Shown: piece after piece, positions 2,637 through 19,194 of the stretch
Numbering within the stretch: position 1 is the first letter of the stretch
Layout of the letters: each line of letters begins with the position of its first letter
DNA from: Parasporobacterium sp.
GTDB lineage: Bacteria > Bacillota > Clostridia > Lachnospirales > Lachnospiraceae
Length of the DNA: 34,140 nt
Assembly (NCBI GenBank): GCA_017510065.1
Contig: JAFWOB010000152.1
Coordinates: forward strand, 1-34,140
Reading direction: 5' to 3'
The notes under the pieces: generated by a model
What the model was told of the DNA's origin: nothing
The model's database searches: none
The model's input: only the letters and a program-made list of their open reading frames with translations
Program-made: the position numbers and the translations under genes

Positions 2637-3388
2637 TTTTTGGCCTCCATATGGTTGATCATATTGGCAAGATAGCCGGCGCCAAATCCGTTGTCGATAT
2701 TTACGACTGACACGCCGCTTGCACAGGAATTCAGCATAGATAAAAGGGCAGACAGACCATGGAAAGATGCGCCGTAACCCACGCTGGTAGGTACTGCGAT
2801 AACAGGACAGTCGGTGAGTCCGCCGATCACACTGGCCAGAGCCCCTTCCATACCGGCGATGGCGATGATCACACTGGCGCTCATAATCTCCTGTCTGTGA
2901 GCGAGAAGACGGTGAAGCCCCGCAACACCCACATCGTACAGACGGATTACCGGATTGCCCAAAAACTCTGCTGTCAGAGCAGCCTCTTCCGCTACAGGAA
3001 TATCGCTGGTGCCGCCGGTTGCAACAACAATGTTACCCAGCCCATCCGGCTCCGGAAGTTTACCAATGATCCCGACCCGGGCATCCTTATGATAAGTCAG
3101 GGGACAAATCGAAGAGACCGCGTCTGCTGATTCCGGGGAAAGACGGGTGATCAGGATTTTTTCCTGTCCATGTTCCTGCATGGTCTTTATGATACCGATG
3201 ATCTGCTCCGACGTTTTGCCGGCTCCGTAGATCACTTCAGACACGCCTTGGCGTGTTCCCCGGTGAAGATCCACTTTTGCGTAGCCGATATCTTCAAAAG
3301 GCTGGCTTTTCAGCTTCAGAAGGGCATCATCGATGGAAACGGATCCGTTTTTTACGCATTCCAGAAGATACCTGGTCTCATTGTTCAT
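2633..3388 (-). CDS. larB: LarB, pyridinium-3,5-biscarboxylic acid mononucleotide synthase
   Basis: LarB carboxylates the pyridinium ring of nicotinic acid adenine dinucleotide and releases AMP, the first step of nickel-pincer cofactor synthesis. The 251-residue product has a PurE-like (AIR carboxylase) fold from about residue 105, with ATGGTSDIPVAEEA at 123-136 and Cys222 in the SCASG segment at the position of the catalytic cysteine. An in-frame ATG exists farther upstream at 3496. I chose 3388 because it follows an AAGGA box, matches the family N-terminus, and lies 37 bases after a strong promoter whose transcript would not include the upstream ATG. It is the first gene of the lar operon. 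Confidence 0.94.
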   Translation of the reverse strand: MNNETRYLLECVKNGSVSIDDALLKLKSQPFEDIGYAKVDLHRGTRQGVSEVIYGAGKTSEQIIGIIKTMQEHGQEKILITRLSPESADAVSSICPLTYHKDARVGIIGKLPEPDGLGNIVVATGGTSDIPVAEEAALTAEFLGNPVIRLYDVGVAGLHRLLAHRQEIMSASVIIAIAGMEGALASVIGGLTDCPVIAVPTSVGYGASFHGLSALLSMLNSCASGVSVVNIDNGFGAGYLANMINHMEAKK

Positions 3389-3579: not shown

Positions 3580-4578
3580 ATGGAAGTAAAATGCGAATAC
3601 TGCGGCAGTCTGATACCGGACGATGCCGCGGTCTGCCCCAATTGCGGAGCACCAAATGCCAATATGAACCGGGCGGCAGCCTCAACGCCCCGGACGATCG
3701 CGGAACTGGAGCAATGGTATAAGGACAGGGGACTGCCCCCTTATGAGACGACCCGTTTTTTTATCGGGATCAACTGCAAGGAGCCGAAGGCATTCGGGAT
3801 CTATCAGGACGGCGATAAATTTATCGTATACAAAAACAAGGCGGATGGTACCCGCTCGGTCAGATATAAGGGAACCGATGAAGACTATGCGGTCAATGAG
3901 CTGTTCCTGAAGTTGAAGAGCGAGATCCTGAACCAGAAAGAGCACACGCAGAGCAGGCAGACGACTTCTTCTCAGACGCATAAAAAAAAAGACCTGGGAT
4001 TTAACGGAGACTGGCTAAAAAGTGTTTTTCAGCTCGGAGCGATCATCATCGGAATGATCGTCGGGATCTATTTTCTGGTCACATCCATCTCCGCACATAT
4101 CTGGCTCATGATAGGCGGGATCGTACTGGCTTTGCTGATCTTTTTTATCGGAAGGAAGATTTTCCGGAATCATAAGATCATCGTTACCGTCGTTGCCTTC
4201 CTGGTGCTGGCTGCTGCGGTGGTCTTTTCTTTGATGCACGGGCATTACCGGCATACGCCGATCTATTACTGGTATAATGATCTTCCGTATGTGTGGTATG
4301 ACGATGACTATTATACCTACGATTATGACAGCAATGATTACATGCCATTATCGGAAGAAGATGTCCCTGAGGATCTTCGGACTTCTTCGGATGAGTATCG
4401 CACCGGCAGCGGGTCTGACTTTGGTTCGGCACCGGATTTTACAGAATCTTCGCACTATGACGACAGTTCCTGGAGCGATTCCATCAACTTTTCCTCGGAC
4501 AATGATGACCATGATTTTGACTGGGGAAGCGACAATGACTGGGATTTCGGTGATACCGACTGGGACAGCGACTGGTGA
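3580..4578 (+). CDS. Zinc-ribbon membrane protein with acidic aromatic tail
   Basis: The function is not recognised. The start at 3580 follows AAGGAAGAAG. The 332-residue protein opens with a zinc ribbon (Cys5, Cys8, Cys19, Cys22). A soluble segment to about residue 140 contains a KFIVYKNKADG stretch. Three membrane helices follow at about 150-170, 173-190 and 198-216. The last roughly 115 residues are very rich in Asp, Ser, Tyr and Trp and end in repeated D-W pairs. This tail is probably disordered and, since the helices number three, should lie on the side of the membrane opposite the ribbon. The gene stands alone between its own promoter and a terminator. Zinc-ribbon proteins with this layout are common and uncharacterised in Lachnospiraceae. 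Confidence 0.75.
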   Translation: MEVKCEYCGSLIPDDAAVCPNCGAPNANMNRAAASTPRTIAELEQWYKDRGLPPYETTRFFIGINCKEPKAFGIYQDGDKFIVYKNKADGTRSVRYKGTDEDYAVNELFLKLKSEILNQKEHTQSRQTTSSQTHKKKDLGFNGDWLKSVFQLGAIIIGMIVGIYFLVTSISAHIWLMIGGIVLALLIFFIGRKIFRNHKIIVTVVAFLVLAAAVVFSLMHGHYRHTPIYYWYNDLPYVWYDDDYYTYDYDSNDYMPLSEEDVPEDLRTSSDEYRTGSGSDFGSAPDFTESSHYDDSSWSDSINFSSDNDDHDFDWGSDNDWDFGDTDWDSDW

Positions 4579-5456: not shown

Positions 5457-5477
5457 CATTGCACAAAAACAGATATC

Positions 5478-5588
5478 TGTTTCTTCCATCCGGACTATAC
5501 CGTCGGTTCAGGAATTGCACCTGATCGGCCCCTGAAGGGGTTCGCAGACTGTCACTGCCGGTGGGGAATCTCACCCCGCCCTGAAACA
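5478..5588 (-). promoter_or_regulatory. FMN riboswitch (RFN element)
   Basis: Read on the minus strand, the aptamer starts with the P1 strand TGTTTC (5588-5583) and ends with GAAACA (5483-5478). The highly conserved internal segments are present in order: CAGGGCGGGGTGAGATTCCC, the ACCGGCAGTGACAGTC block, GCGAACCCC, GCCGATCAGGTGCAATTCC, and GACGGTATAGTCCGGATGG. All the expected joining regions of an RFN element are visible. It senses FMN and controls the riboflavin importer gene directly downstream. Confidence 0.97.
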
Positions 5589-5598
5589 TTTCCCGTGT

Positions 5599-15781: not shown

Positions 15782-17290
15782 ATGATCTTAAGAAAGGCCG
15801 CAGCCATAGCAGCTGTTCTGACGTTAACAATGAGTATGACCGCATTTGCGGCACCGCCGGACATGCCGCCGGGAGAGTCCCAGGGGGAATCCCAGGGAGA
15901 ATCTGACGGCGGGCCGGGAATGCCTCCAGGAGGCGGACCGGGAGAATCTGAGGGCAGACAGGGAATGCCTCCAGGAGGGAGCGGCGGATCTTCCGCACCG
16001 GAAGAATATGAAGCTGTTCTGAATATTACAGAAGATACCGAGATCACAGGAGAAGATCTGGCTTCCGAAACAGGAATGGAGAATGTCGTTCATATTTATG
16101 AGGGAGCATCTGCCGTGATCACGAACAGCTCTTTCTCCAACAGCGGGGAAGGAAATGGAGGAGATGCCGCCAGCTTCTACGGCGTCGGAGCAACACTTTT
16201 AGTTTCTGACGGCGAATTACATCTGTCTGACTCCACGATCACCAGCGAAACGGCAGGTGGAACGGGTGTATTTGCCTACGATAACGGAACAGCTTATATG
16301 TCGGATGTTACGATCCGCAATTCCGGACGGGGCGGATGCGGTGGTATCCACGTTGCTGGCGGAGGAACTCTGTACGCCTGGAATTGTGATGTGGAAACCA
16401 CAGGCGGTTCCAGTGCAGCAATCCGGTCTGACAGAGGCGGCGGAACCATGGTTGTCGACGGCGGCTCCTATGTGACGCAGAACGGTACCGGTGCTGTATA
16501 TTGTACCGCGGATATCACGGTTCATGATGCATATCTGTTTGCCGGGAAGAGCGAGGCGATGGCCATCGAAGGCAAGAATACGATCAGGCTCTTCGACTGC
16601 TCCCTGGAAGGAAATATGCAGGAGACGGATGTCAATGACAACCGGGTCTGGAACTGCATCGTTTACCAGTCCATGTCCGGAGATGCGGACGTGGGAACCA
16701 GCGAGTTTGATATGATCGGCGGCGAACTGATCTGCCATGCAGGTCCTGTCGTCTTCAACACCAATACTTCCAGTTATATTACCTTTGCAGATTGTGATAT
16801 CACTTACGGAGACGACACTACCTATTTCCTGCAGGTCACCGGTAATGCAAGCTCCAGGACCTGGGGAAAGGCAGGAGCTAACGGCGCGAACTGCATTTTC
16901 AGCGCTTATAATCAGAAACTCAGCCATGACGTGCTTTACGATACCATTTCCAATCTGGACTTCTATCTTCTGGATGGTTCTTCTTTTGAGGGAGCGGTTC
17001 TGTGTGATGATACTTACAACGGCGGTTATTCTGGAGACGCAACTGCCAGCATCTATGTAGATGCTTCTTCTGTATGGACCGTGACCGGCGACAGTGTGGT
17101 AACCGGCACCTTATATCTGGAAGGAAGCATTGAAGGAGCGCAGGTCGTCGGAACAGACGGCACCGTGTATGTGGAAGGAGAAGGGTATACTGTTACGGTA
17201 AATGCTTTTGCGGATACCGTAGATGTTTCCGCTGCGGGTCAGGTCCCGGTATGGGAAGATTATGCAGTGGAAAGTCCTTTTGAAACGTGA
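15782..17290 (+). CDS. Secreted beta-helix-like protein with Gly-Glu-Ser linker
   Basis: This 502-residue protein has a clear signal peptide (about 1-23, ending AFA). It continues with a low-complexity Pro/Gly/Glu/Ser linker (24-72, repeated GESQGES and GMPPGG words). From about 78 to 480 it shows short repeating beta strands with recurring Asn/Asp/Gly/Ser turns and phrases such as LHLSDSTITSETAGGTGVF, as in right-handed parallel beta-helices. There is no LPxTG motif, no membrane anchor and no catalytic signature that I can name. The start follows AGGAGG and lies 25 bases after the zinc-ribbon gene, so the two may be one transcript. It shares style and linker words with the 960-residue protein at 30945-33827; both may be surface adhesins or glycan-binding proteins (inference). 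Confidence 0.8.
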   Translation: MILRKAAAIAAVLTLTMSMTAFAAPPDMPPGESQGESQGESDGGPGMPPGGGPGESEGRQGMPPGGSGGSSAPEEYEAVLNITEDTEITGEDLASETGMENVVHIYEGASAVITNSSFSNSGEGNGGDAASFYGVGATLLVSDGELHLSDSTITSETAGGTGVFAYDNGTAYMSDVTIRNSGRGGCGGIHVAGGGTLYAWNCDVETTGGSSAAIRSDRGGGTMVVDGGSYVTQNGTGAVYCTADITVHDAYLFAGKSEAMAIEGKNTIRLFDCSLEGNMQETDVNDNRVWNCIVYQSMSGDADVGTSEFDMIGGELICHAGPVVFNTNTSSYITFADCDITYGDDTTYFLQVTGNASSRTWGKAGANGANCIFSAYNQKLSHDVLYDTISNLDFYLLDGSSFEGAVLCDDTYNGGYSGDATASIYVDASSVWTVTGDSVVTGTLYLEGSIEGAQVVGTDGTVYVEGEGYTVTVNAFADTVDVSAAGQVPVWEDYAVESPFET

Positions 17291-17325
17291 TCTTGTTTTT
17301 ACATTGAATGTGCTGCAGCGAATGT

Positions 17326-17545
17326 GAGGCTATGCATGATTTAGAAAAAGTGCATGTAACGTTCGCGAGGCTATGCATGATTTTTTGTAAGATATACGAG
17401 GCTATGCATGATTTCAACCCTTAAAAGGGGACCGAAATCGTGCATAGCCTCAATTTCGTTACACGGCATTTTTGAAAATCGTGCATAGCCTTTGGTTTGT
17501 TACATATTTTTCTGAAAAACCATGCATACCGTCTATTCTGTTACA
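17326..17545. repeat. Array of six degenerate 41-bp-spaced repeats in two opposed sets of three
   Basis: The 359 bases 17291-17649 hold no gene; they hold this array and a terminator. The repeat core is AAATCRTGCATAGCCTC. Copies on the minus strand are at 17326-17342, 17367-17383 and 17398-17414. Copies on the plus strand are at 17435-17451, 17476-17492 and 17517-17533. Start-to-start steps are 41, 31, then (after the turn) 41 and 41. A second element, GTTACA, begins exactly 23 bases after each plus-strand core (17458, 17499, 17540). It is mirrored by TGTAAC/TGTAAG at the same distance from two left copies (17355-17360, 17386-17391). The two innermost copies can form an 18-bp hairpin with one G-U pair. 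The array lies between the secreted-protein gene and the converging carboxypeptidase gene. Confidence 0.92.
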
Positions 17546-17649: not shown

Positions 17650-19194
17650 TCAGATCCGGTAGATATCCCGGTATTTGGTCTCCAGGTAATCCAGGTAGAC
17701 GCCGGGGTCAAACGGCTCTTGAAGGACTCTGTCCAGCAGCTCATCCGGCTTGTATAAAGAACCGTACTGCCAGATGTTCCGGCGGTTCCATTCGTTGATT
17801 GGACCGAAGTCTCCGGAAGAGAGACAGCTGTCCACATCCACAGTCTCTTTCATTTTGCGGAGGAACTGGGCGCCGTAGGCGCTTCCCAGAGCATAAGACG
17901 GGAAATAGCCGATCATGCCGCCGGACCAGTGGCTGTCCTGCAGGACGCCGCGGCGGTCATCCGGCACATCAATCCCCAGGTATTCTTTGTACAGGCGGTT
18001 CCATTCCTGAGGAAGATCTTTTACTTCCAGTTCGCCAGCCATCACGCGTTTTTCCAGTTCATAGCGGATCATGACATGGAGGCAGTAGGTTACCTCATCT
18101 GCTTCTGTCCGGATCAGAGATGGCTCGGAACGGTTGATAGCCCGGTAAAGTTCATCTGCGGTGATACCTTCCATAGACTCCGGGAACAACTCCCTGAGTT
18201 TGGGAAGGAGCAGGGAAGTAAACGCGCGGCTCCGACCGATGATATTTTCATAGAACCGGCTCTGGCTTTCATGGATTCCCATGGAAACGCCGCCGTCCAG
18301 GACTGTGAATGCCAGATCCCGGGCAGAGCCTGTATCATACAGAGCATGACCGCCTTCGTGGATTACGCTGTACATGGAGAATGTATAGTTATCTCTCTTA
18401 TAGTTGGTGGTAATACGCTCATCCAGATGAGATCCCAGAGAAGTCGTAAAGGGGTGTTCCGTTGTGGAAAGACCGCAATGTTCCCGGTCCAGCTTCATAA
18501 GATCCATCAGATAGACAGACAGCTTCTCCTGCACATATTCCGGAAAATCACCCCACAGGAAATGATCATCCACCTGCTGCGCCGTTCCGATCGCATGGAT
18601 CAGGGGAACCAGGCGGCTCCTCAAGGCGTCAAAGAACCGGTCGCAGATCTCCATATTGACCCCCGGCTCGTATTCATTCAGCCAGTAATCATAGGGAAGC
18701 ATATCCGGTGCACAGTAACCGGCAAACCGTTTCTGCGTTTCGAAGATCTTCTCCAGGAGAGGCTGAAACATCGGGAAGTCGCTGGCTTCCTTGGCTTTGT
18801 GCCAGACATCATCTGCCTGTACCAGAAGTTCCTGATAAGCAACGTACTCGTCCATGGGGATCTTCTGCATCTGACGGACATCCTTGAGCATCAGGAAGAC
18901 CATTCTTCTTAACCGGAACAATTCTTCTTCATCAGCTGCAGCCGTTTCCACCGGCTCTGCTTCTGCCGGGTTCAGTTCCTTATCCAGGTATTCCAAAAGC
19001 TCCAGCGTTTCGGAACTGGTAGCGATCCGATACATCTCCTCAGTCAGGATCCCCAGGCTGTGAGCCCTGTTTTCGGCAGTCCCTTTCGGCGCCGTCGTAG
19101 CACCGTCATAATACATGAGGGAAACGGCGTGGTCATAAGCACTTAGTTTTCCCTGCAGGTCATAAAGCGCTTTCTTTGCTTCTTCAAATTTCAA
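17650..19194 (-). CDS. M32-family metallo-carboxypeptidase (carboxypeptidase Taq type)
   Basis: This 514-residue cytosolic zinc peptidase removes C-terminal amino acids from peptides. Family M32 marks are all present: HPFT at 247-250, the DERITT segment near 258, the zinc motif HEGGH at 279-283, and HESQSRFYEN at 308-317, where Glu309 is the third metal ligand. Length is typical for the family. The start codon is TTG at 19194, placed 6 bases after a perfect AGGAGG; no ATG fits. The gene follows malQ by 12 bases and is in the same transcript, although peptide and glucan breakdown have no obvious link. Confidence 0.94.
   Translation of the reverse strand: MKFEEAKKALYDLQGKLSAYDHAVSLMYYDGATTAPKGTAENRAHSLGILTEEMYRIATSSETLELLEYLDKELNPAEAEPVETAAADEEELFRLRRMVFLMLKDVRQMQKIPMDEYVAYQELLVQADDVWHKAKEASDFPMFQPLLEKIFETQKRFAGYCAPDMLPYDYWLNEYEPGVNMEICDRFFDALRSRLVPLIHAIGTAQQVDDHFLWGDFPEYVQEKLSVYLMDLMKLDREHCGLSTTEHPFTTSLGSHLDERITTNYKRDNYTFSMYSVIHEGGHALYDTGSARDLAFTVLDGGVSMGIHESQSRFYENIIGRSRAFTSLLLPKLRELFPESMEGITADELYRAINRSEPSLIRTEADEVTYCLHVMIRYELEKRVMAGELEVKDLPQEWNRLYKEYLGIDVPDDRRGVLQDSHWSGGMIGYFPSYALGSAYGAQFLRKMKETVDVDSCLSSGDFGPINEWNRRNIWQYGSLYKPDELLDRVLQEPFDPGVYLDYLETKYRDIYRI

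Follow-up and report, generated by a model that had tools for sequence, protein, structure and literature searches.

The window that we analysed, by which we mean the whole stretch of 34,140 nucleotides presented here, carries a mirror-image array of two-part repeats between two convergent genes. The question raised by this locus is what kind of element the array is and whether a particular protein belongs to it.

A mirror-image array of six bipartite units

The array spans positions 17314-17545 and is made of six 29-bp units in two opposed arms, the left one (17314-17414) on the minus strand and the right one (17435-17545) on the plus strand. Each unit of this kind, which we call type I, is bipartite and consists of AAATCRTGCATAGCCTC, six bases and then GTTACA or a variant of it. 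The array and its neighbours are laid out as follows:

15782..17290, plus strand: neighbouring 502-aa ORF without a Pfam family, ending about 24 bp ahead of the array
17314..17342, minus strand: unit B3 (outermost left), second element GCTGCA
17355..17383, minus strand: unit B2, second element GTTACA
17386..17414, minus strand: unit B1 (inner left) with CTTACA as its second element, separated from B2 by the conserved short step of 31 bp
17415..17434, no strand: 20-bp centre, CCC(C)..TTTT..GGG(G); length as in 46 of 50 centres from the source genome and its sister species
17435..17463, plus strand: unit A1 (inner right), whose core covaries with that of B1 from array to array
17476..17504, plus strand: unit A2
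17517..17545, plus strand: unit A3, core degenerate
17650..19194, minus strand: convergent neighbouring gene for a Peptidase_M32 carboxypeptidase, with its 3′ end about 105 bp away from the array

The minus-strand units start at 17342, 17383 and 17414 and the plus-strand units at 17435, 17476 and 17517, giving steps of 41 and 31 bp in the left arm and of 41 and 41 bp in the right arm, with the innermost units 20 bp apart. An earlier note on this DNA had described six copies in two opposed sets of three, and its coordinates and spacing are correct. It had also placed GTTACA 23 bases after the core in all three right-hand units and in two of the three left-hand ones; the former is exact, whereas only one left-hand unit has GTTACA and the other two have CTTACA and GCTGCA. 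Other arrays also use GTTGCA and GATGCA. The fifth core of the window array ends in CTT, and the sixth, AAACCATGCATACCGTC, has three differences. We agree that this is not a CRISPR, as the arms are mirror images and the spacers are related.

Dozens of arrays with regular spacing in the source genome

In the whole source genome (G000), an assembly of 242 contigs and 3.47 Mb that is 90% complete, the type I core had 238 matches with two mismatches or fewer, against 4 for a reversed-pattern control. Strict-type central dyads number 28. We took 35 stretches of this genome beyond the window and 14 from a sister species of the same genus (G012), and later a further 8 and 4, respectively. The G000 stretches, of which L150 and L151 begin alike, together with the window hold 46 clusters of at least two units (38, then 8). 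The unit profile found no match with a score of 4 or more in 312,759 shuffled bases, and the units that we counted score 10 to 49. The window array is one of dozens of scattered copies of a spaced DNA element. The profile search of the genome and its relatives that had been proposed as a check thus returned many copies with regular spacing, not a single copy or random spacing.

The canonical layout reads A4 -52- A3 -41- A2 -41- A1, centre, B1 -31- B2 -41- B3, with one to four units per arm and usually five to seven per array. Among 175 same-strand steps in the arrays of both species, we found only values of 31 (45), 39 (1), 40 (1), 41 (115), 42 (7), 52 (3) and 53 (3) bp, in support of the two-part unit, constant offset and helical phasing proposed earlier. 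Measured from first base to first base, 46 of 50 centres are 21 bp, with 3 at 20 and 1 at 31. The 31-bp step, which the window array carries on its left arm, had been taken for a loss of 10 bases; with 45 occurrences, almost all of them the step nearest the centre in one arm, it is instead a conserved asymmetry.

An alignment of 29 G000 arrays, including that of the window, has 151 columns and 84% mean column identity. With L151 and the arrays without a clear A/B orientation left out, the cores covary with z 5.0 for A1/B1, 3.0 for A2/A3, 5.4 for B2/B3, 1.8 for A2/B2 and 0.0 for A3/B3; columns 59/104 of the A1/B1 pair are GC in 15 arrays and CG in 10. A long RNA stem is disfavoured because A2/B2 and A3/B3 do not clearly covary. 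The RNA role that had been considered possible is not supported, as only the inner unit pair covaries in a hairpin-like way and the outer arms do not.

Conservation and gene context

Among the first 14 G012 loci, 11 align with G000 loci and have the array at the same place, and therefore show no sign of recent mobility; two loci taken later (L156 and L276) were also paired, and no empty site or recent insertion was found for any array. Substitutions were counted in 10 G000/G012 pairs, as one of the 11 (L160/L035) gave nothing. They affect 34 of 643 fixed unit positions (5.3%), 46 of 300 spacer positions (15.3%) and 23 of 146 positions in the centre (Fisher p 1e-6 for fixed unit positions against spacers and 6e-5 against the centre), in G012 loci that were chosen by near-exact core matches and with fixed positions that were defined from the units themselves. 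At one site shared by the two species, L144 (G000) has one A-arm unit and L159 (G012) has three, as if units had recombined with each other.

The 35 G000 arrays with a called gene on each side lie in 15 convergent, 17 same-direction and 3 divergent gaps, compared with 8, 25 and 18 for 51 other gaps used as background, so that convergent gaps are enriched (p 0.007) and divergent gaps depleted (p 0.005). Genes were called by ORF length and not from annotation. The count leaves out the 8 later G000 stretches, the arrays that lacked a called gene on one or both sides, and L151, which duplicates L150. The median distance from an array is 37 bp to a gene 3′ end (47 ends) and 109 bp to a 5′ end (23 ends). 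Array orientation in same-direction gaps is 9 against 7, with 1 undetermined, and no strand is preferred. The position of most arrays just downstream of genes, in either orientation, points to DNA, not RNA. A scan of 20 array-flanking genes revealed no common family. In G012, IS-end-like sequence (by eye) abuts or interrupts arrays at L162 and L276, which have the common end GCTCCGTCCCCCAAAAAGTAGAGTTG, and at the contig ends of L160 and L161; the arrays may be IS targets, as REPs are.

Further unit types with the same design

We searched 14 genomes of the genus with a profile of the type I arrays (R1). Among the best candidates of each genome, up to 150, there were at least 144 matches in G000 (both strands), 52 in G012, 3 in a third species (G006) and 2 in G001, which has only a single dyad; outside this profile search, G002 gave one match with three mismatches. 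Across 295 relatives, at least 6 matched from the best candidates, at most 10 per genome, and the matches in G201 and G471 (E 6.1e-4 and 4.8e-4) were rejected, as no array was seen there by eye.

The arrays of G006 have a like design with another unit, AACACnCAnAnnCnTnAnnnnGTGTCA, steps of 40-41 bp and a centre of 14. Their profile (R2) matched only G006, G000 and G012 among the 295 relatives, with best E values of 2.4e-6 in G000 and 2.1e-6 in G012. Both of these genomes also carry arrays of type II (AAATCGTTCATACCCGGCAAATCGTTGCA) and type III (AAATCRCGCATACCTCnnnATTYGTTGCA), with steps of 41-43 bp, and across the unit types of G006 the steps are 40-41 or 51 bp.

A detector of mirror clusters that left the step free between 25 and 60 bp, with shuffling inside 2-kb blocks as its control, found 10 clusters in 383 kb of G006, with main steps of 40, 41 and 51 bp only, and none after shuffling; it missed the arrays of L297, a G006 locus described below. 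In the loci of G000 and G012, 44 of 50 clusters have main steps of 40-42 bp and 6 have 27, 30 or 54. Elsewhere, the same detector returned 7 clusters from 681 kb of unrelated loci, at other steps (33, 36, 45, 46 and 60), a single cluster with a step of 30 from 32 kb of genus loci, and 3 clusters (30, 32 and 40) from 100 kb of Collinsella. With seven step values, of which type I contributes three, phasing of this kind was reached in 2 of 20,000 random draws.

A nuclease-like gene accompanies the arrays

A gene that the earlier note had overlooked lies between or beside such arrays. All six relatives of a nuclease-like protein of about 330 aa that we saw in the genus adjoin mirror arrays, of five unit types. 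The 334-aa gene of G000 whose product we call P0003 lies at L036 (C128) between two type I arrays. An 84%-identical copy in G012 (L166) sits beside a type I array on the only side visible, as the contig ends on the other side of the gene, and a 55%-identical gene on another contig of G012 (C80, L273) is enclosed by type III arrays. The outer flanks of L036 and L273 are 94-95% identical, and this likeness stops about 60 bp or less short of the array edges; array, gene and array appear, from this comparison, to have been exchanged together as a block. G012 thus holds two versions of one locus, perhaps from mixed strains.

A profile of the protein family found three genes in 383 kb of G006 (E 1.6e-76, 1e-62 and 2.1e-61; next match 0.36), and all three adjoin mirror arrays, each with a unit of its own (three further types). 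Arrays with 51-bp steps flank the gene of L294 on both sides and are inverted copies of each other (170 nt at 78%), 40-bp-step arrays flank that of L297 on both sides, and the gene of L292 adjoins one 51-bp-step array, with a second one lying 1.8 kb off on its opposite side. The gene is therefore flanked on both sides at L036, L273, L294 and L297, and on one side at L292. An array stands within 300 bp of 24 of the 314 ORFs in the G006 sample; only two ORFs are flanked by arrays on each side, and these are both nuclease-like genes (p 4e-4 and 6e-5, from a list of arrays compiled by hand and uncorrected for the fact that some of them were first noticed while viewing the nuclease flanks). The sample is also biased in that the partner genes of G000 and G012 were found via arrays and the G006 contigs were chosen for holding arrays. 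We consider the association of the arrays with one nuclease-like gene family to be strong in these three species.

Being flanked is not unique to the nuclease-like gene: a 391-aa gene at L165 (3339-4514), which by eye encodes a UDP-galactopyranose mutase, also has arrays on both sides, one of type I and one of type II. No partner gene was seen in the G006 sample for the commonest unit type of that genome (AACAC..GTGTCA). Plasmids and phages were searched without finding an array, a single 36-base phage match (E 0.8) being judged chance, and neither the type I nor the G006 unit pattern turned up an array in viral contigs. The partner protein was likewise not found in phages or viral contigs, where none of 17 pattern matches was confirmed.

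P0003 alone has no Pfam or NCBIfam family and no solved-structure match, and it matches the PADLOC homing-endonuclease model weakly (E 0.015). In profile-profile comparison, its residues 163-291 match three mycobacterial MTES_1575/DUF559 proteins (95.5%, E 1.3e-8). The L294 protein exceeds the DUF559 cut-off, that of L283 reaches only E 0.007, and P0003, L292 and L297 taken alone have no DUF559 match at the limits used. Five residues (D242, E253, Y254, H260 and D269) do not vary among the seven aligned relatives, and we take this D/E/Y/H/D set to fit a Vsr-like PD-(D/E)XK nuclease. Judging from the sequence, the most probable partner is a predicted nuclease whose C-terminal domain is Vsr/DUF559-like. 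Its likeness to DUF559 and REase_MTES_1575 (PF04480, PF18741) lies in the C-terminal domain and the conserved D...E...H...D pattern, and one source describes such a domain as a Vsr-type domain of a conflict-system protein (PMC3710099).

Simpler repeats in Collinsella and mycobacteria

Two relatives of the protein in Collinsella, found by protein search alone, are followed 13 and 30 bp past the stop codon by an inverted pair of 42 or 52 nt. Counting the gene-adjacent one, there are 6 inverted pairs of like kind in 100 kb of Collinsella; they are simple, without a phased array, and their units were not seen again in the 100 kb.

The protein search also gave three weak mycobacterial matches (E 0.05-0.35). 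In Mycobacterium sp. ST-F2 (L109, 5370-6370), the AbiEi/DUF559 gene, whose product is one of the three in the profile comparison, is bracketed by an interspersed palindrome, with GnGATTTGTGCACGATTTTCCGCGG and its mirror as the two copies. L117 has the palindrome on one side only, and at L059 a related gene is 1.3 kb from it. As these loci were chosen by core pattern, their likeness to the core of the window was selected; the gene between the copies was not. The mycobacterial repeats are simple inverted pairs and not phased arrays. Palindrome pairs with similar spacing also lie at L092 (5765-6765) and L101 (6660-7642), around genes that by eye are relatives of the L109 gene.

A proposed explanation and its alternatives

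On balance, we think it probable that the arrays are putative binding sites of this nuclease family, present as scattered non-autonomous copies, in a logic like that of REP and RAYT with an unrelated enzyme. The array in the window would then be a non-autonomous copy within this interspersed family. Each unit, whose two-part architecture is observed directly, would be a bipartite protein-binding site, a natural inference from the sequence, and steps in multiples of about 10.3 bp around a central dyad would keep the units on one face of the helix. The partner would be the protein of about 330 aa with the C-terminal Vsr/DUF559-like PD-(D/E)XK domain, encoded between or beside arrays, and distinct members of its family are associated with distinct unit types, as seen for six genes and five types in the genus. 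We presume that the protein binds the array cooperatively and nicks or cuts at or near it, which could spread the arrays or keep them alike via copying or break repair. A broader proposal, which we make tentatively and with some doubt, is that Vsr-like (PD-(D/E)XK) nucleases coevolve with, disperse or homogenise phased mirror arrays, as a new class of repeat system in which the phasing of about 10.3 bp is kept while unit sequences change rapidly from one species to the next, with simpler one-pair versions in Actinomycetota.

An unlikely alternative is that the arrays are sites that serve the host, bound by an architectural, boundary or roadblock protein, and that the nuclease-like gene merely sits on a segment carrying such sites. 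Arrays crowd in convergent gaps and close to the 3′ ends of genes (median 37 bp), which would agree with this, as would the constraint on unit positions and the retention of loci in two species. However, REP-like selfish repeats also gather between genes, several unit types coexist and differ between related species, and unit types pair with particular nuclease-like genes. In addition, 10 of the 14 genus genomes had no type I profile match among their best candidates, although other types would escape that profile.

Array edges look sharp by eye, the outer edges are defined, the units end in CA/TG and the 29 aligned copies are alike at 84%, all of which could describe an ordinary MITE, that is, the ends of a DDE or HUH transposon placed back to back, with the autonomous copy lost. 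We regard this as decidedly improbable, as Y1_Tnp is absent from G006 and G012 and its three copies in G000 have no type I unit nearby, the units are constrained, the arms vary from one to four units, and no exact target duplication was seen by eye in four arrays, with one near-match of 4 in 5 bases. The ends of the Mu and Tn7 transposons have several direct transposase sites each, and the arms here also have several direct sites, but they face each other across a 20-bp centre and hold no cargo; Mu-transpos_C is absent from the array-bearing G000, G012 and G006 (incomplete assemblies), and ends of this type were rejected. That the arrays are a transcribed structured RNA, forming a long hairpin in 3′ UTRs, is scarcely credible despite the covarying inner A1/B1 pair, since A2/B2 and A3/B3 are not clearly above shuffles while the direct neighbours A2/A3 and B2/B3 are, orientations are split 9 to 7 with 1 undetermined, and no Rfam family reaches its gathering score over the array, with matches only far below.

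Comparison with known systems

REPs are short palindromes with a GTAG/CGTC-type tag. The type I consensus is not, and the element here is instead a phased mirror array of 29-bp bipartite units. The enzymes also differ, as RAYT is a Y1/HUH tyrosine transposase and the partner of the arrays is Vsr/DUF559-like. The putative nuclease binding sites nevertheless resemble REP, REPIN and BIME with RAYT in that many inverted repeats are interspersed between genes, an enzyme gene lies by or between its cognate repeats, and repeat type pairs with enzyme type (PMC2817692, PMC3116915). The RAYT gene is reported to lie always between inverted REPs and to coevolve with them (PMC2817692). A RAYT was rejected as the partner of the arrays on the distribution of Y1_Tnp (none in G006 or G012, three in G000, without type I units nearby). 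A RAYT-like 279-aa gene of G000 (L239) has no type I unit within the 3.3 kb examined around it.

BOX elements are laid out as boxA-boxB(n)-boxC and, to our knowledge, form no mirror-image phased arrays and have no known nuclease partner. Like the arrays, the BOX elements of Streptococcus pneumoniae are interspersed repeats restricted to closely related organisms, and they are regarded as parasitic (PMC3049150). In the open-licence literature, we found no paper that ties DUF559, MTES_1575 or AbiEi domains to interspersed repeats, and the position of the arrays beside genes for an uncharacterised nuclease-like protein suggests a previously undescribed system of an enzyme plus repeats. If our reading is correct, the pairing of an enzyme gene and dispersed repeats, as in RAYT and REP, would have arisen again with an unrelated nuclease fold, and DUF559/MTES_1575-like proteins would gain a testable DNA target. 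The phased mirror site, with its measurable rule of n x 10.3 bp, would also offer a clean system for the study of cooperative DNA binding on one face of the helix.

Other palindromes and features were observed during this work. A core-pattern scan of genome contigs had the mycobacterial palindromes and others adjacent to tRNA genes among the matches listed, which at first seemed unrelated. The latter, TGCACGATTTTGTG..CACAAAATCGTGCA, lies beside an apparent tRNA 3′ end in several MAGs of uncultured Clostridia (L048, L049, L116 and L135). A viral contig (L137) carries two near-identical 43-bp palindromes with the same half-site at 3101-3143 and 3771-3813, 670 bp apart. Elsewhere in the window, an FMN riboswitch aptamer lies at 5474-5592 on the minus strand (E 1.8e-24).
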